From the NCBI RefSeq assembly GCF_900215155.1, contig NZ_LT907980.1, positions 3,162,001-3,226,000 on the forward strand: a stretch of 64,000 bases of DNA, in the 5' to 3' direction. The notes under the pieces were generated by a model. It was given only the letters and a program-made list of their open reading frames with translations, was not told the DNA's origin and did not search any database. Both the position numbers and the translations under genes were made by a program. Positions 56,206-64,000 of this stretch are shown here, in pieces. This DNA comes from Marinobacter sp. LV10R510-11A. Its GTDB lineage: Bacteria > Pseudomonadota > Gammaproteobacteria > Pseudomonadales > Oleiphilaceae. How positions within the stretch are numbered: position 1 is the first letter of the stretch; every line of letters starts with the position of its first letter.

Positions 56206-58038
56206 ATGTGTGGCATTGTAGGTGCAGTTTCGGAACGGGACGTCCAGGGCATTCTTCTTGAGGGCCTGCGCCGCTTGGAATACCGCGGATACGATTCTGC
56301 CGGTATGGCAGTGTTGGATGGGAAAAGCGCCATTCAGCGTGCGCGGGAAGTGGGCAAAGTAGCAGCGCTGGCCGCTGCCGTAGAAGCCAGCCCGCCTTCC
56401 GGACATTTGGGTATTGCACACACGCGCTGGGCCACCCACGGCGAGCCGTCGCAACTCAACGCCCACCCGCACATGTCTGGCGATCGCTTGGCGATCGTGC
56501 ACAACGGTATTATCGAGAACTATCAGGAACTGCGCGAAGAACTCAAAGCCGACGGCTTTGAGTTTACCTCCCAGACCGACACCGAAGTTGTTGTACACCT
56601 GATTGAAAAGAACTTCCGCGAGCTTGGTAAGCTTTACGATGCGGTGAAGACCTCCGTTACCCGCCTGCGCGGTGCTTACGCACTTGCCGTTGTGCATGCG
56701 GATGAGCCGGACCACATGGTCGTTTGCCGCGAAGGCAGCCCGCTGGTCATCGGTGTAGGCATAGGTGAGAACTTTATCGCCTCCGATCAGCTTGCTCTGT
56801 TGCCTGTGACCGACCGCTTTATGTTTTTGGAAGAAGGCGACCTTGCGGATATTCGCCGGGATAGCATTGAGATTCATGACCGGGAGGGCACGCGGGTTGA
56901 ACGCACTACCAGCCGTTTTGAGCACAGCGCCGACGCGGCTGAAAAAGGTGAGTACCGGCACTTCATGCTCAAAGAGATCCATGAGCAGCCAAAGGTGATC
57001 AAGGCCACCATGGAAGGCCGTGTGACAGATACACGGGTACTGGAGCAAGCTCTTGGTACGGAAGCCGGCGATCTTTTGAAGGATGTCCGCCGTGTACAGA
57101 TTATTGCCTGTGGCACCAGCTACCACGCTGGCATGGTAGCCAGGTACTGGATCGAAGATCTGGCCGGCGTACCCTGTTCCGTGGAAGTCGCCTCCGAGTT
57201 CCGCTATCGCAAGCACGTAATCCAGAACGACACCCTGTTCCTGTGCATTTCCCAGTCTGGTGAAACCGCCGATACTCTGGCTGCACTTCGCCAAGCAAAA
57301 AAAGCCGGATTCCGTGCGGCCCTGGCCGTCTGCAACGTACCGGGTAGCTCGCTAGTGCGGGAATCCGACCTGGTGATCATGACCCAGGCCGGCCCGGAAA
57401 TCGGCGTTGCGTCTACTAAAGCATTCACCACCCAGCTCACAGCACTGCTTATTTTTACTCTGGCATTGGCCCGAAAAAATGGCCTGAGCGAGGAGCGGGA
57501 AACGGAAATTGTTAAGGCGCTTCATTTGGTGCCCGGCCAGGTCAGCGATGTGCTGGCACTGGACGGCGAGATCGCAGAGATGTCTAAGCGGTTCATGGAT
57601 AAAAACCATGCCCTGTTCCTTGGCCGGGGCTCGCAGTTCCCGGTCGCTATGGAAGGTGCCCTGAAGCTGAAAGAAATTTCCTACATTCATGCAGAAGCCT
57701 ATCCTGCGGGTGAGCTCAAGCACGGCCCGCTGGCGCTTGTCGACAGCGAAATGCCGGTGATCACGGTTGCGCCAAATAACAACATGGCTGAGAAGTTGAA
57801 ATCGAACCTGGAAGAAGTCCGTGCCAGGGGCGGCGAGTTGTTTGTGTTTGCGGACCGCGCAGCGGATATTAAACCGGAAGAGGGCATTCATGTGCTGCAG
57901 CTTCCTGAAGTGCACGAAATCACGGCTCCAATTGTGTATACCGTGCCATTACAGATGCTGGCCTACCATGTTGCCGTGCTTAAAGGCACAGATGTTGATC
58001 AGCCTAGAAACTTGGCGAAAAGCGTTACGGTTGAGTAG
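56206..58038 (+). CDS. glmS: Glutamine-fructose-6-phosphate aminotransferase
   Basis: A 610-residue enzyme. The N-terminal glutaminase begins [11 protein letters not shown], with the nucleophile Cys right after Met. Two SIS sugar-isomerase domains follow ([40 protein letters not shown]). It ends [17 protein letters not shown], the conserved segment whose DNA is recognised by TnsD in Tn7 target-site selection. A Tn7-like end begins 27 bp after its stop. No terminator is seen between stop and insertion. Confidence 0.98.
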
Positions 58039-58060
58039 ATCAGTACAGGGATTATCGGTG

Positions 58061-58132
58061 GAAATTGTGGGATCATAATAAAGTCGGTAACTTAATAAAA
58101 TAGTTGGTAACTTTGTAATAAAGCTGGTGACC
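58061..58132 (+). mobile_element. Tn7-like transposon right end (TnsB-type repeats) at attTn7
   Basis: TGTGGG at 58066 is followed by three consecutive units: TAATAAAGTCGGTAACT (58076-58092), TAATAAAATAGTTGGTAACT plus TTG (58093-58115), and TAATAAAGCTGGTGACC (58116-58132). From memory, the Tn7 right end starts TGTGGGCGGACAATAAAGTC with overlapping 22-bp TnsB sites of the same form. The five bases before it (GAAAT, 58061-58065) would be the target duplication, centred 25 bp after the glmS stop as in attTn7. No tnsABCDE genes follow, so the element is deleted or a remnant. Confidence 0.82.
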
Positions 58133-58136
58133 ATTG

Positions 58137-58432
58137 AACGTTGTTGCAACTCGAAGAATCACATGTGGCTGAGATAGCCTTTCCGCTACCAAGTGAGAGT
58201 CACATTGCCTACAGAAATGCCGGAGCTTTCCTGGCTAAGACTCATACGTAGACAGAAAATCTTCGCCGGATAGCCAGCGAAAGTGCTCGCGTTTCACCCC
58301 AGCTGTTGAGGCAAATGGTGCCGCATGAGCCTTGCGGCAGGTCTGACAATGGCAGTGAATTATAGGCATATCCAACGCGCTTAATTCGTAACGGCGTATC
58401 TCACCACACAAACAGCTGCCTTTCATCCCCAC
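58137..58432 (-). pseudogene. GFA/CENP-V family zinc protein, nonsense mutation and 3' truncation
   Basis: Reading from ATG 58432, the first 65 codons give the start of a GFA-domain protein with zinc cysteines (KGSCLCGEI, HCHCQTCRK) and end at TAG 58237-58235 after STYES. The same frame continues after the TAG with PGKLRHFCRQCDSHLVAER and QPHVILRVAT, exactly the next family blocks, including the second cysteine pair. Homology stops near 58137, next to the last Tn7-type repeat. About 40 C-terminal residues are gone. A serine codon has probably become TAG. Confidence 0.8.
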
Positions 58433-58481
58433 GAGAGCACCTCCTCTTTAAAATTTAACACTTAAGCATTTAATCGCCGGA

Positions 58482-58862
58482 TCAGCGAGATGTGAAGGCG
58501 GATTTCGCAGTAGTGATGGCATTCATTGCAGCGGGAATGCCGGCGTACACTGCCACTTGCAGGACGATCTCAACGATTTCATCATGGGAGGCGCCGGTGT
58601 TCAAAGCCGCGCGCATATGAAACTCAAGCTGACCAGGTGCCGTCCCCATCGCCGCAAGCATCGCGACGGTCAGCATCTCACGGGTCTTCAGTGGAATCCC
58701 CTCGCGTGCAACCACGTCGGTGAAAGCGAAACCCAGCAGTATCTCGGCTGCTTCAGAGTGAAAATCATCGAGATTTTTCGCAACGCGCTCAGGAGCTCCC
58801 GACTCAAGGCGTTCAAGCAACGCCAATGCCCGTGTGCGGCGATCGGAGGGGCTGGCGCTCAT
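58482..58862 (-). CDS. Carboxymuconolactone decarboxylase (CMD)-family protein
   Basis: A 126-residue all-helical CMD/AhpD-like protein. The core is [20 protein letters not shown] followed by [20 protein letters not shown] and [14 protein letters not shown]. The CxxC of AhpD is absent, so a peroxidase role is unlikely. The substrate is unknown. Its ATG overlaps the stop of the aldo/keto reductase gene (ATGA), so the two are co-translated. The pair is divergent from a LysR regulator. Confidence 0.85.
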
Positions 58863-59842
58863 GCGTTTACCCCCTTCATGCCTTCCGGGGCGTAGCGTTC
58901 ACCTATCACCGGCAGGCGTGCGGTCGCCGTTTCGAGTTGCTGCTGCTCCTCCGCACTCAGCGTGATCTGCGCGGCAGCCGCATTCTCTTCGAGATAGCGC
59001 AGTTGCTTTGTGCCAGGGATCGGCACGATGTTGGGCCCTTTTGACAAGAGCCAGGCAAGCGAGAGCTGCGCCGGGCTGCAGCCCTTCTGCGTGGCCATTG
59101 CGGCGATCACGTCTGCGATCCGGCGGTTAGTGCCAATCGCTCCTTCGGCAAAACGCGGTAGGCTGGTACGGAAGTCACCATCGCCGAGCTCCGCTGTATC
59201 CTGAAACCGGCCAGTCAGGAACCCGCGGCCGAGTGGCGAATAGGGCACGAAGCCAATATCTAACTCACGACAGGTGGGCAGCACTTCTTGCTCTACGTCG
59301 CGCGTCCAGAGAGAGTACTCGGTCTGCACCGCAGTGATCGGATGAACCGCATGGGCTCGACGCAGCGTCTCAGCGCTGACCTCGCATAGGCCGATGCGTG
59401 CGATCTTACCGGCCTTGACCAACCTCGCAAGCCCATCGATCGTCTCTTCGATCGGCTGCTCGGGGTTGATGCGATGGACGTAATAGAGGTCAATTTGTTC
59501 CACTCCGAGACGACGCAGGGAAGCCTCGCAGGCTTTGCGCGCATAGTCAGCACTGTTTTCCAGACTGCGCCTGTATTCACCGGGATTGCGCACAATACCG
59601 AATTTTGTCGCAATGTGAACCGGCTGCCTATTGTGGGCCAGAAAACGACCAATCAGCTCTTCGTTGTGATGCGGCCCGTACATGTCTGCCGTATCGAAAA
59701 AGTCGACACCAAGTTCGACGGCGCGCGCCAGCACACGCAGCGATTCGCTGTCATCTCTGGGGCCGTAGAACTCGCTCATCCCCATGCAGCCCAATCCGAT
59801 GGCAGATATAGATAGGTTGGTGCCAAGCGTTCGTTTTTTCAT
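58859..59842 (-). CDS. Aldo/keto reductase
   Basis: A 327-residue NADPH-dependent (beta/alpha)8 oxidoreductase. The catalytic tetrad is visible: D and Y in [21 protein letters not shown] in VHIATKFG, H in [11 protein letters not shown]. The C-terminal [16 protein letters not shown] and [17 protein letters not shown] bind cofactor. Start ATG at 59842 ([10 protein letters not shown]) has AAGGAG upstream; a longer reading to 60019 runs into the LysR gene and is rejected. It is likely controlled by the divergent LysR protein 47 bp away. Confidence 0.92.
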
Positions 59843-59889
59843 GATGTGTCTCCTTGAATACCGGAATTGCATCGTGGCACTATCCATAA

Positions 59890-60831
59890 ATGAAAAAAAT
59901 GACCGATTTAGGCAAACAGATTTCCGGACTTGAAAAACAGATGCCGCGAGGTTGGATCTGGGATGACACTCGGGCCTTTCTTGCCGTCGCCCGCCACGGC
60001 ACGCTGAGTGGCGCGGCATCAGAGCTCAATCTGGGGATTGCGACGCTTTCGCGGCGGATCGAGCGGATCGAAAAGGCGTTGAAGCTGCCCCTCTTCGTAC
60101 GCCAACAGTCTGGCTATCAACTGACTGAAGAGGGGACCGGCTTAATCGAGAAGGCCGAAGCTCTGGAGGCTGCTGCGGTGGCTTTCTCCTCTGACGCCTC
60201 GGCCCAAGCGCAGATGGTCGGTAAGGTACGCCTAGCCACGGCCGAGAACCTGGCGACTGGGCTAATCCTTCCGGCACTGCCGGAATTCTGCAGAAAACAC
60301 CCTGATCTCGCGATTGAGCTTGTGACGGATATTACGACTGTTAACCTGCATCGGCGAGATGCGGATCTTGCTTTACGAATGGTTAAACCGGAACGTGGCA
60401 ACGTCACGCTGCGCCGCCTCGGTGTCCTGGGATACGGGCTTTACAGCAGCTCAGACTACGCGGCCCAACGCGAAATTGAGCCCAATTTGGGATGCTATGA
60501 CACGGATGCCTTCATTACTTGGAGCGAAAGGCAGTCGCACCTACCTGCTGCGCAATGGGTCGAGCGAATTCTGCAAGGACGTGAGCCAGTGCTCACTACG
60601 ACCTCGCTCTCAGCTCAGGTTGCGGCGACTAAGGCAGGGCTCGGGCTTGCAGTGTTACCTCATTTCGTCGCCCTAAATGCGGGGCTGATCTGCGTCGCCT
60701 CAGACATAGGCGTCGATCAGCCAATCTACCTGGTAATCCAGTCTGATCTGGCGCAGTCGCGCCGCACGCGTGCAGTGGCTGACTTTCTCATCGATCTGGT
60801 GAGCCGCAACTGCACTCGCCTAAGTGGTTGA
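59890..60831 (+). CDS. LysR-type transcriptional regulator
   Basis: A 313-residue LTTR. The winged HTH is at about residues 27-86 ([40 protein letters not shown]). The effector domain follows ([20 protein letters not shown]). It is divergent from the aldo/keto reductase-CMD pair, the usual position of a regulator relative to its target. ATGs at 59890, 59899 and 59941 are possible; the family N-terminus fits the last as well. Confidence 0.88.
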
Positions 60832-61227
60832 AACTCAGGCTGCGCTCAAATGTTTTTTCGAAAAGAGATTTCAACAGCCCCCTATGCTTAATGATCGGCC
60901 GACCAATCCGCTGAGAGTACTGTTTGTCTCATATTGTAGCCGCGAGTAAATCAGTCACGAAATTCGGATACCTCAAAAATGAACGGGACTCCCAAACCAA
61001 GTTCCGAAGCTTTTAAAGAGATTCCTGAAAAATGGGGGAGGTCACCAGCGCCCTTTCATCATTATGGCTAACGATCAGCTGGAGCTGGAAAGCTGGTTGC
61101 AAATGGGTACGCTTCAGCAGAATTAGATTCAAGAATTAGCCAGCCGAGACACGAACAACTACTTAAGAATAAATTGAAAAAAGCGCATTACCACCCCACA
61201 ATTCAGAACCACATTGAGGGGGACAGG
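60832..61227. other. Gene-free stretch in the island
   Basis: No convincing gene, repeat or promoter was found. Both strands break into frames of about 30-40 codons (for example an ORF from ATG 60979 of 30 residues). The composition is more AT-rich than the flanks. It may be decayed coding sequence, but no family was recognised. Confidence 0.5.
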
Positions 61228-61428
61228 TCAATCCATAATATCTAGTGGTGAGAAGTCGAGTTCAGGCGGCCACTTCACGGTGATCGTGACAGAGCCAGTC
61301 ACGACCTTTTTTGATAGCATGGCGTTATTCCGGCCGGGGGTGACCGAGGTTACAAAAGCAAACAGGGCAAGCGCAAACAACAAATCGATGGACAACGATA
61401 TGGATTTTCTCTGAAAGCGGGAGTGCAC
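61228..61428 (-). pseudogene. LysE-family transporter N-terminal fragment
   Basis: The 66-codon frame contains SIDLLFALALFAFVTSVTPG then RNNAML (61315-61392), the first helix and TPGPNN block of LysE/RhtB exporters. After that the sequence is unrelated, ending LDFSPLDIMD. The remaining about 175 residues of a LysE protein are missing. It lies next to an intact LysE gene from which it differs strongly, so it is not a simple local duplicate. Confidence 0.6.
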
Positions 61429-61507
61429 GCTGCACGCCCTACCGGGATTACGCGGGAAGAAGGTGCGTTATAGTCTCTCGTTTTATGGATGAAATTTTAC
61501 CGGGGCC

Positions 61508-62137
61508 TCAGAACAACGAGCTGAGAAAGCCGATGGCTACCATCGAATAAAAGGCAGCGCAAATCAGCCCGAACGATTTACGGGTACGGGCGAAAAACCG
61601 TTCCGCCGAATGCGCGGAGAAGGCCAGTGCATAAGTGCAAAAAATCACGCCCCCCAAAACCGCACAGCTGGCCACTAGGACAAAACTGGCCCAAATCGGC
61701 GCGCTGGCACTCAGCCCGACAGTGGTCACGGTGAACCAGGTCAAGGTCGCCTTGGGGTTGGTCAAGTGAATGCCCAGCCCTTGCAAATAGAAGCCCAGGT
61801 TGCGCGTCTGTTTTTCCTGCGTGCGTGCCACGATCCCGGCGTTGTGCGCCAGCGCACCGTGGATCGACTTCCAGGCGAGGAAAAACAGATAGCAGGCGCC
61901 CAATATTTTCAACCACACCAGCACCTGCGTGTTGGACATCAACAGCGCCGAGACGCCGGCAGCCGTCATTGCACCCCAGCACAACGACCCGGAAATGACC
62001 CCGGCGGCCAACGCCAGGCCCGGTGTGCGCCCATAATTGAGCGAGGTATTGGCAATCGCCAAGTTGCCTGGCCCCGGGCTGGCGGTGCCGATCACGTAAA
62101 CCCCCAGTGCGGCAGCGAAACTCGAAAACTCAAACAT
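61508..62137 (-). CDS. LysE/RhtB-family amino-acid exporter (copy 1)
   Basis: A 209-residue protein with six hydrophobic helices. The N-terminal ASPGPGNLAI is the LysE family block, here with G for the usual N; GIHLTNPKATLTWFTVTTVG is the NPK block. It exports amino acids or derivatives across the inner membrane. Start ATG at 62137 has GAGAGGG upstream. It is the third gene of a LysE-formyltransferase-LysE series on the minus strand, after a stable hairpin. Confidence 0.85.
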   Translation of the reverse strand: MFEFSSFAAALGVYVIGTASPGPGNLAIANTSLNYGRTPGLALAAGVISGSLCWGAMTAAGVSALLMSNTQVLVWLKILGACYLFFLAWKSIHGALAHNAGIVARTQEKQTRNLGFYLQGLGIHLTNPKATLTWFTVTTVGLSASAPIWASFVLVASCAVLGGVIFCTYALAFSAHSAERFFARTRKSFGLICAAFYSMVAIGFLSSLF

Positions 62138-62177
62138 AGAACCCTCTCATACCCATTGCGTCAGCGCGCACAGTGAA

Positions 62178-62205
62178 CACTTCAAGCCACTGTCGGCTTG
62201 AAGTG
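62178..62205. repeat. Intercistronic hairpin between formyltransferase and LysE genes
   Basis: CACTTCAAGCC (62178-62188) and GGCTTGAAGTG (62195-62205) form a perfect 11-bp stem with loop ACTGTC. No T tract follows on the minus strand, so it is more likely a message-stabilising or processing element than a terminator. Confidence 0.7.
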
Positions 62206-62219
62206 GCTTGCCAAAAAAC

Positions 62220-62825
62220 CTACCTGAAGCAACGATGATCCGGCTCCTCGGCGCGGACCCTTTCCATCCAGGGTTTGAGCTCCGATTGCTTGTACAACCG
62301 CTCGCCCCAGCTCTCTGGTGAGACCGGCAGTGACCGTCCCTGCAGGATATAATCGGTGACCAGATGGATGAACTGCTGCAAGCAATAAGCGCCCACGTGC
62401 AGACGCAACGACGATGCAGTCTCAGCCCGTGCTACGTTAAAGTGCGCCACATCAATAATCTGCCCGCTGTCGACCGAAGGTGCCAAGTGATGGCAGGTTG
62501 AACCGTAGGTTTCATCATTGTAGTAGATCGCGTAGTGCTGGCTGCCCAGACCGCGATACTTGGGCGGCGCCGGATGCAGATTGATCGCACCCTTGTGAGC
62601 ATTCTTGTAAATGCTCTGCGGAAAGATAAAGTCGCCGCGGTAGGAAATGATCCAGTCGCCTTCCCAGTTATCTAGGTGATACGGGTAAGGATCGCCCGGG
62701 TCCCAGCAGAACACCTCCAGGTTGGAGAACACCGTCTTGGCGAATTCGACCCCATGGTCGCACCAGTCCATGGTGCATACCGACAGCAGGACTTTGTCCT
62801 TGCACGGTGCGTTTCTTTGCATCAT
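62220..62825 (-). CDS. Formyltransferase-family protein (formyl-THF-type, small)
   Basis: A 201-residue Formyl_trans_N domain protein. The catalytic set of formyl-tetrahydrofolate-dependent transferases is present: N82 and H84 in AINLHPAPPKYRGLG and D119 in VDSGQIID. It lacks the C-terminal domain of Met-tRNA formyltransferase, so it probably formylates a small amine or hydroxylamine. Start ATG at 62825 has TGGAGAAG upstream. It sits between two LysE exporter genes, which suggests its product or substrate is an amino-acid-like compound that is exported. The acceptor is not known. Confidence 0.8.
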   Translation of the reverse strand: MMQRNAPCKDKVLLSVCTMDWCDHGVEFAKTVFSNLEVFCWDPGDPYPYHLDNWEGDWIISYRGDFIFPQSIYKNAHKGAINLHPAPPKYRGLGSQHYAIYYNDETYGSTCHHLAPSVDSGQIIDVAHFNVARAETASSLRLHVGAYCLQQFIHLVTDYILQGRSLPVSPESWGERLYKQSELKPWMERVRAEEPDHRCFR

Positions 62826-63002
62826 CACTTCTCCAGTTGCAAGGCATTTGGCTGAAATCAATTGCGTACTCTGTTAATCGACTGAAGCTAATGCGCCAGG
62901 ACTTTGACCACCGCTGGTAAACGAGGAAATCACCTGAAAAAATTTTCCCGGAGTTGCTTTCGTCAATCGCACCGGTTGCGTTTTGACAAGTTTTCTGTGG
63001 GT

Positions 63003-63632
63003 TCAAGACCACCATTGCTGAAATGGCAGGCCTCTTAGAACCGGAATCAACGACATCAACAGCACCAGGCTCATGATGATATTGAACGCCTTTAAACACG
63101 ACGGCCGAGTCAGGAAACGTCGCAAATACTGTCCAAAAAATACCCAAACCAATGAACAGGGTGAGCCGAACAAAAAGAACAGCAGAGCAATTAGTAAGAC
63201 CTGCACACGGAAGGGCTCCAAGGGCGAGGTATAGGCCAGTACCGCGCCCACGGCCATCACCCAGGCTTTCGGGTTGACCCACTGAAACAACGCCGCAGCG
63301 GTGAACCCCAATGGCTTGCCCGACGGATCATCCATGTCCACCACGGGGGCGCTGGCTATCCGGTAGGCCAAATACAGCAGGTACACCGCGCCTATCACTT
63401 TCAGTCCGTCCTGCAGCCACGGGTATTGTCGGAAAATTGCCCCCGCGCCCAGCCCGACTGCCACCAACATTAACGGAAAACCGATGTTGATCCCTGCCAA
63501 ATGCCGCATCGTGCGGCCCATCCCGAAATTCGCCCCCGATGACATCAACATCACGTTGTTAGGCCCTGGCGTGACGCATGTGGCGATCACGAACAAAATG
63601 ATCGAGTAGTAATCGAGGTTCTGTATCGTCAT
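63003..63632 (-). CDS. LysE/RhtB-family amino-acid exporter (copy 2)
   Basis: A 209-residue, six-helix exporter with the family blocks TCVTPGPNNVMLMSSGANFG and LFQWVNPKAWVMAVGAVLAY. It is only distantly similar to the LysE protein encoded at 61508. It is the first gene of the minus-strand LysE-formyltransferase-LysE series and is divergent from a MocR/GntR-type regulator gene; that layout is typical for regulator-controlled exporters. Confidence 0.88.
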   Translation of the reverse strand: MTIQNLDYYSIILFVIATCVTPGPNNVMLMSSGANFGMGRTMRHLAGINIGFPLMLVAVGLGAGAIFRQYPWLQDGLKVIGAVYLLYLAYRIASAPVVDMDDPSGKPLGFTAAALFQWVNPKAWVMAVGAVLAYTSPLEPFRVQVLLIALLFFLFGSPCSLVWVFFGQYLRRFLTRPSCLKAFNIIMSLVLLMSLIPVLRGLPFQQWWS

Positions 63633-63791
63633 GCTCCATCGATCAGCGTCAGCGGCGTCAGCGGCGCCAGTTGCGCAGGTGCTAGTGCACAGGCTGTGAG
63701 TTGCAACTGCACAAGCGCAACAGGCTCTCCGTCTCCAGGGACTTGCGGATCTGTATAGGGCATATCATCCCAAGGCACAGATGTGTATTAC

Positions 63792-63898
63792 AGATACAGA
63801 AGTGATGAATTTTTTAGATACAGACGGCCTTTTTTTGTATAAAAATTTCAAAAAAACCCCTATCTGTAGCTTTTCAAGCAACAGACGAGAAGCTACAG
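63792..63898. promoter_or_regulatory. Candidate regulator sites between LysE and MocR-type gene
   Basis: AGATACAGA occurs twice in direct orientation (63792-63800 and 63816-63824), 24 bp apart. Nearer the regulator, CTGTAGCTT (63864-63872) and AAGCTACAG (63890-63898) form a perfect 9-bp inverted repeat. All share a TACAG core. MocR-type regulators bind direct repeats in such divergent gaps. The region is also very AT-rich (63808-63857). Confidence 0.5.
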
Positions 63899-63906
63899 TC
63901 AGAGCT

Positions 63907-64000
63907 ATGACTCTTTATCTGAACCTCGCCGAATTCATCAGCAGCCGCATTGAGCAGGGCCTGTACGGGCCTGGCGAGCGCCTACCCTCTGTACGCGCCC
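63907..64000 (+). CDS. GntR/MocR-type transcriptional regulator (partial, 5' end only)
   Basis: Only the first 31 codons are in the window: MTLYLNLAEFISSRIEQGLY then GPGERLPSVRA. The last block, with the arginine/leucine/proline pattern, is the recognition-helix lead of GntR-type winged HTH domains. The start YLxLAxxI is usual for MocR proteins that carry a C-terminal aminotransferase-like domain. That domain is beyond the edge, so the MocR call is an inference. It is divergent from the LysE series. Confidence 0.7.
   Translation, partial: MTLYLNLAEFISSRIEQGLYGPGERLPSVRA

Follow-up and report, generated by a model that had tools for sequence, protein, structure and literature searches.

A Tn7-family element without tns genes behind glmS in a Marinobacter genome, and tns-less elements with the same ends in the genus

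The window analyzed here, a stretch of 64,000 nucleotides from Marinobacter sp. LV10R510-11A, corresponds to C1:3162001-3226000 of a single-contig 4.44-Mb genome. Toward its end it contains glmS, followed directly by a segment that we designate element B. B outruns the window by 2 kb, and features beyond position 64000 are given in extended window coordinates; G and L numbers denote genomes and loci. A tRNA scan of the window returned none. The features of the locus are as follows.

56206..58038, + strand: glmS, a 610-aa ORF identified by eye; a glmU-like gene lies upstream of it, an arrangement also seen in L056 and L059
58061..58065, no strand: GAAAT, copy 1 of the 5-bp target duplication (copy 2 at 65992-65996, beyond the window)
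58066..64000, + strand: in-window part of element B (full extent 58066-65991, 7,926 bp; genome C1:3220066-3227991)
58066..58149, + strand: right end of B, with the TGTGGGATC terminus and three TnsB-type sites, cores from 58077, 58097 and 58117
58235..58432, - strand: GFA-type (glutathione-dependent formaldehyde-activating) gene, incomplete (PF04828)
58482..58862, - strand: carboxymuconolactone decarboxylase family protein (PF02627)
58859..59842, - strand: aldo/keto reductase, AKR (PF00248)
59890..60831, + strand: LysR-family regulator (PF00126, PF03466)
61508..62137, - strand: LysE-type translocator (PF01810)
62220..62837, - strand: formyltransferase-domain protein (PF00551)
63003..63632, - strand: second LysE-type translocator (PF01810)
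63781..64000, + strand: start of a GntR/MocR-like PLP-type regulator (534-aa ORF ending at 65385, outside the window; family assigned by eye)
65844, 65899 and 65965: sites of the left end of B, which follows the MocR-like cargo gene and has its terminus at 65991
66000-84779: neighbouring second Tn7-family element (genome C1:3228000-3246779), beginning in L012

The terminus of B, TGTGGG, starts at 58066, with 27 bases between it and the glmS stop at 58038, and GAAAT is centred 25 bp from that stop. The 3' end of glmS is what we take to be the attTn7 recognition sequence, its role being carried over from Tn7. Three head-to-tail units occupy 58076-58092, 58093-58112 and 58116-58132, the third of them, TAATAAAGCTGGTGACC, being imperfect; the cores of the corresponding sites start at +12, +32 and +52 of B, an even 20-bp step. 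The right end aligns with the right ends of tns-bearing elements over 84 bp, to 58149, and then diverges, a limit that falls before the tnsA start in those elements. A sequence-only reading of the window had proposed a Tn7-like right end at attTn7, facing glmS, with TGTGGG 27 bp past the stop, three head-to-tail units and GAAAT as the duplicated bases centred 25 bp from the stop. All of this was borne out, the orientation being that of tnsA-bearing elements. The span it gave, 58061..58132, takes in the target duplication (58061-58065), and the element itself starts at 58066. Its description of the element as possibly decayed, with the resemblance hidden by sequence divergence, has to be given up: all six sites and both termini are retained, each site has 0-2 mismatches, and the right end is 85% identical over 85 bp to that of G074.

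The search past 64000 found the inverted left end anticipated by the same reading, with CCCACA and then GAAAT. This end reads ...TTACCAACTTTATTCCGATCCCACA to 65991, followed by the exact second copy of GAAAT, and its core starts lie at +12, +78 and +133. B begins with TGT and finishes with ACA; each of its ends contains three TnsB-type sites, and GAAAT bounds it on either side. The six site positions are the same in B, G045, G026 and G011, and a 172-bp stretch of B's left end matches an end in G097 at 89% identity. Removal of B and one GAAAT leaves GTGGAAATATG, which is identical to the 11 bases to the right of the neighbouring element; the borders of B are thereby fixed, and the genome itself displays the site as it was before insertion. 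By its ends, its 5-bp duplication and its position and orientation at attTn7, B belongs to the Tn7 superfamily. With 7,926 bp and at least seven genes, it is not the short, non-coding element that defines a MITE. The entire element was not found anywhere else.

The cargo of B consists of metabolic and regulatory genes. The stretch 58142-60810 is 85% identical to a block in contig C81 of G011, where the GFA gene is intact; the homology of B's GFA gene to an intact 160-aa copy in L162 ends 105 bp before that gene's stop, at the right-end junction. Pieces of the LysE-formyltransferase-LysE-MocR part are 83-98% identical in G074, G067, G097 and G049. The LysE/MocR cargo of the G074 element is 93-97% identical to that of B and is found roughly 4-6 kb inwards of a GGTAACT right end, which is followed by a tnsA piece with stops; the AKR-LysR parts of G074 and B are about 69-71% identical. 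A plasmid search with the in-window part of B returned 119 records, none covering 80% of it, and the 8 matches listed fall on its left, AKR/LysR side.

B is not an autonomous Tn7-like element encoding TnsA, TnsB, TnsC and TniQ/TnsD, and a Pfam scan of eight of its proteins gave no tns match. Whole-genome Pfam searches for TnsA (PF08722) and TniQ (PF06527) at E 0.001 gave one match each, in the neighbouring element, and a whole-genome search with the G045 TnsB as sole TnsB query returned one protein, the neighbour's TnsB, which is 39% identical. Within reach of those searches, a matching helper is thus absent from the genome. The sequence-only reading had noted the lack of tns genes, which stands for the inside of B; tns genes of another family start about 0.1 kb beyond B, past the window end. 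It had also raised a tnsABC set able to act in trans: a set is present, but its own ends are of other sequence, and no helper in trans was found.

The right end of the neighbouring element, from 66000, reads TGTCAGCGGACA and has three TTTGATAA-type sites. Its genes are ordered tnsA, tnsB, tnsC, cargo and a TniQ-domain protein of 244 aa, after which comes the left end at 84779. The tnsA gene has an in-frame TAA inside the stretch matching the TnsA N-terminal domain, and the TniQ-domain protein, about 10 kb from tnsABC, has no Pfam TnsD match. Ends of the neighbour's family also lie behind glmS in G005, G051, G067, G072, G074, G087, G097 and G112. Since B is located between glmS and the neighbour, B arrived later; the insertion of one element beside another, giving several ends, is described in the available text of PMC8649781. 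In G067, glmS is followed by ATATC and a TTTGATAA-type right end; at a distance of 35 kb come a left end of the same type, ATATC, a T and a GGTAACT right end, so that the order of elements there seems reversed relative to B's genome. As a separate observation, the neighbour, with B removed, is flanked not by 5 bp but by the 11-bp repeat GTGGAAATATG (58058-58065 plus 65997-65999, and 84780-84790). This repeat could have arisen by a cross-over if two independent insertions, with duplications ATATG and GTGGA, had lain 6 bp from each other.

Elements of the same end type that carry tns genes are present in the genus. In six genomes (G045, G026, G011, G046, G006 and G077) a GGTAACT-type end stands 24-25 bases behind the glmS stop and is followed by the tnsA of the family, whole or partial; tnsA is cut by a contig end in G046 and G006 and broken in G077. 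The M. persicus contig NZ_FOSC01000007.1 (G045) has the order tnsA, tnsB, tnsC, tnsD, tnsE. TnsA, TnsC, TnsD and TnsE were assigned there by Pfam, and TnsB, which had no Pfam match, by its match to Tn7 TnsB (7pik, E 5.4e-200). The tnsA-E frames of G026 were identified by eye, and tnsA of G011 and G046 by search. The G026 element spans 65 kb with the duplication ATTAG, and duplications found across contigs are GTCTC in G045, TAGGA in G011 and ATCCT in G046.

One strict right-end pattern, run against named genomes, gave 17 stretches, 14 from Marinobacter and one each from Alcanivorax, Oceanisphaera and a MAG labelled Rhodopirellula; viral contigs scanned with the end pattern gave 0 loci. The Rhodopirellula-labelled contig end (L048, L047) agrees with the M. 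flavimaris element in its end and flank letters and is possibly a mis-binned Marinobacter contig. That the repeats would align with the ends of Tn7-like elements, as the sequence-only reading implied, was confirmed for the tns-bearing Marinobacter elements and for the tnsABCD element on the Acidithiobacillus caldus SM-1 megaplasmid (NC_015851.1), which has right-end GGTAAC sites at +12/+32/+52 and a TnsB 62% identical to that of G045. These sites are absent, however, from the right ends of the Proteus penneri and Shewanella khirikhana plasmid elements, two of the three named plasmid elements examined. Judged by its site motif (0-2 mismatches per site) and by site positions like those of G045, G026 and G011, B appears to be a non-autonomous member of the GGTAACT family. 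Separately, a TGTGGCGTG-type end was observed behind a second glmS-like gene in G074 (L131:6889) and behind glmS in G021 (L125:9664), with no facing partner in the fetched stretches.

B is one of a number of such elements in the genus. Ends of the GGTAACT family were detected in 35 of 124 genus genomes, allowing 3 mismatches, so that chance may account for some single weak matches among the 35; none of the 124 rows had a match to the reversed pattern used as a control. TnsA of either family was detected in 21 of the 124, and 22 of the 35 have no TnsA match. From 44 sequences fetched for holding ends, with flanks playing no part in the selection, we drew 16 nearest facing end pairs at most 30 kb apart. 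Identical 5-bp flanks were found in 12 of these, against about 1 in 1024 per pair expected by chance; since L129 and L130 represent a single insertion shared by two genomes, the 12 exact pairs amount to 11 insertions. The remaining four are inexact, with agreement in four of five letters for L128 and L131 and in two of five for L121 and L127. Excluded from the 16 were the duplicate-id loci L047, L055, L060 and L058, pairs more than 30 kb apart or on two loci (G026, G045, G011, G046, G121), and a 24-kb pair in G074 whose outer end begins TGC. The exact pairs measure 242, 659, 813, 837, 838, 872, 1863, 1977, 2963 (twice, one insertion), 7926 (B) and 21352 bp, and the absence of tns genes from them was judged from frames by eye and the TnsA search, the TnsB search covering B's own genome.

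The elements of 837, 838 and 872 bp (about 0.84 kb), from M. salicampi, M. flavimaris and M. aromaticivorans, are 90-99% alike and have the duplications GTTCG, ACTGC and GCAGA. Their flanks, compared over 400 bp (69 bp for the right flank of L060), do not match, and they occupy three different places. The one copy scanned encodes a Phd/ParE-type toxin-antitoxin pair, and the host genomes (G009, G019, G054) gave no TnsA match. A plasmid search with this element returned 56 records, none covering 80% of it, and the 10 matches listed cover the antitoxin gene only. B's own genome has an 813-bp member at C1:277205-278017 (L003:735-1547), with the duplication TCTAT and a toxin-antitoxin-like pair recognized by eye; an element in G074 with different flanking letters matches it over 736 bp at 96% identity. 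The 21-kb pair in G060, a genome without a TnsA match, encloses insertion-sequence and metabolic genes by eye. These tns-less relatives, with duplications and at differing places, are the main support for the movement of elements with such ends in the absence of their own tns genes.

Two further ends were noted in B's own genome. Near C1:4253075 (L002:540-1540) a single good family end lies beside a MazF/AbrB-like pair (by eye), with CAGGC outside the end and again 1 kb away before TGTGGA, on a side without recognizable sites. At C1:290869-290895 another end (TGTAAGCTC, two sites) lies beside a MazEF-like pair (by eye), and a search of the preceding 20 kb for its 5-bp flank plus TGT gave no partner.

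We consider it highly probable that B (58066-65991) is a complete non-autonomous Tn7-family element that was put into attTn7 by TnsABC and TnsD acting in trans, from a helper that is now absent. TnsA and TnsB of a relative would have bound the ends of B, while TnsD would have bound the end of glmS and recruited TnsC. B would then have been pasted about 25 bp behind the glmS stop and GAAAT doubled by gap repair, along the Tn7 route, and the helper may later have been lost from this genome or may never have settled in it. The point at which the GFA homology stops, at the right-end junction, together with the comparison with G074, makes B look like the deletion product of a larger element, whose tns genes would have been lost through a deletion fusing the right end into the GFA gene. 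Several observations count against this reading: B lies 27 bases behind the stop, compared with 24-25 in the six genomes, about 20 for Tn7 (PMC2918618) and 25 for Tn6171 (PMC8190619); no second location of the complete B was found; G074, with its shared cargo, retains a broken tnsA piece; and four of the 16 facing pairs lack an exact duplication.

The strongest competitor, which we regard as a substantial possibility though one that we do not favour, is that B was a regular autonomous Tn7-like element when it inserted and that a later deletion in place removed tnsABCDE, making it a fossil that never moved in trans. The right-end homology to tns-bearing elements, only 84 bp long and ending before the would-be tnsA start, agrees with this, as does a junction that cuts the GFA gene as a deletion would. 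G074, which shares the LysE/MocR cargo (93-97% identical), keeps a broken tnsA piece by its right end, and this fits decay after insertion as well. Against in-place loss, the genome yielded no matching transposase, yet none of the six sites has been lost, and a small tns-less element whose ends are of this family did move. Furthermore, B and G074 share only about 69-71% identity in their AKR-LysR parts, so the two are not one insertion at different stages. By analogy with the small tns-less relative at several sites, B itself may have been mobile in the tns-less state, and deletion of the tns genes before its insertion appears slightly more likely than deletion after it.

It is very unlikely that B was moved by the neighbour's own TnsABC (66000-84779) rather than by a lost helper. 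The neighbour holds the sole TnsA/B set found in the genome, about 0.1 kb away, but we rejected it as the mover in our main reading: its own end sites are of the TTTGATAA type against the GGTAACT type of B, its TnsB is 39% identical to the TnsB of the GGTAACT family, its tnsA has the in-frame TAA, and its 244-aa TniQ-domain protein lacks a Pfam TnsD match. Finally, we give practically no credence to the repeats, found near the glmS stop in several species, as chance or as a conserved non-mobile feature of the glmS 3' flank such as a regulatory repeat: 164 kb of own-genome sequence contain a single cluster of three sites within 80 bp (at most 3 mismatches per site), and none of ten order-1 Markov simulations of that sequence contains one, which rules out chance; 24 of the 30 glmS loci returned, examined for the empty sites to which the sequence-only reading had pointed, have neither repeat type after glmS, which rules out a conserved flank repeat; a matching inverted end with the duplicated GAAAT lies 7.9 kb away; and such ends also occur elsewhere in genomes.

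Beyond the insertion of B by a lost helper, a broader proposal, on which we are evenly divided, is that the Tn7-type machinery of Marinobacter serves as a shared trans-acting mover of tns-less passengers with exchangeable GGTAACT ends, a satellite system parasitising Tn7 targeting. The passengers would include cassette-like units (0.24-3 kb), several of which hold a single toxin-antitoxin or comparable pair, as well as large blocks such as B (7.9 kb) and the 21-kb unit of G060/G121. TnsD would direct some of them to attTn7, and TnsE or another selector would direct others elsewhere. Because their ends differ, passengers would be able to stack before other Tn7-family elements at attTn7. Such a system, if real, would have an effect comparable to that of an integron.

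B is a natural, end-complete, tns-less Tn7-family element at attTn7. A full-text literature search, thin on subscription journals and covering some sources in part, returned no description of naturally occurring Tn7-family elements that lack tns genes but have their ends intact. In its available text, the large survey of Tn7-like transposons sets boundaries around transposase genes, so that elements without tns genes would escape it (PMC8649781). If tns-less passengers are common, gene flow via attTn7 and other Tn7-type targets exceeds the counts, and "orphan" cargo behind glmS gains a simple origin. Additionally, the tns-less set provides natural end variants for work on end recognition and allows a direct test of the action of TnsABC and TnsD on foreign donors in nature.

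The known systems comparable to B include Tn7 and Tn6171, which carry tnsABCDE at attTn7. Like them, B has TGT/ACA termini, multiple TnsB-type sites per end, of which the outermost lies 12 bp inwards, a 5-bp duplication, a position about 20-25 bp behind glmS and a right end directed towards glmS. According to the available portions of the sources, Tn7 makes a 5-bp duplication and inserts about 20 bp after the stop (PMC2918618), Tn6171 is inserted 25 bp past glmS and has a duplication of 5 bp (PMC8190619), and the outermost site of Tn7-like elements has a median offset of 12 bp (PMC8649781). In contrast to Tn7, B has no tns genes, and its right end has three sites where that of Tn7 has four (PMC8649781). 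The tns-bearing GGTAACT family of Marinobacter shares location and orientation with B, as well as motif and positions at both ends (G045, G026, G011), and tns genes are found only in the former. The A. caldus element shares the positions of the right-end sites, but it is plasmid-borne, tns-bearing and from another host class. For the cyanobacterial CRISPR-associated transposons, mention has been made of relatives that possess the ends but no tns genes. In engineered mini-Tn7, Tn7 ends surround a cargo, the transposase is supplied in trans and attTn7 is the target; mini-Tn7 is a laboratory construct, whereas B is natural. The available text of a MITE review mentions "Tn7" twice, for attTn7 targeting and in a reference title (PMC10969869). 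Prokaryotic MITEs and the tns-less family are alike in being non-autonomous, in having the ends of an autonomous family and in duplicating the target, and the 242-bp member fits the MITE size, whereas B is 7.9 kb long and coding.
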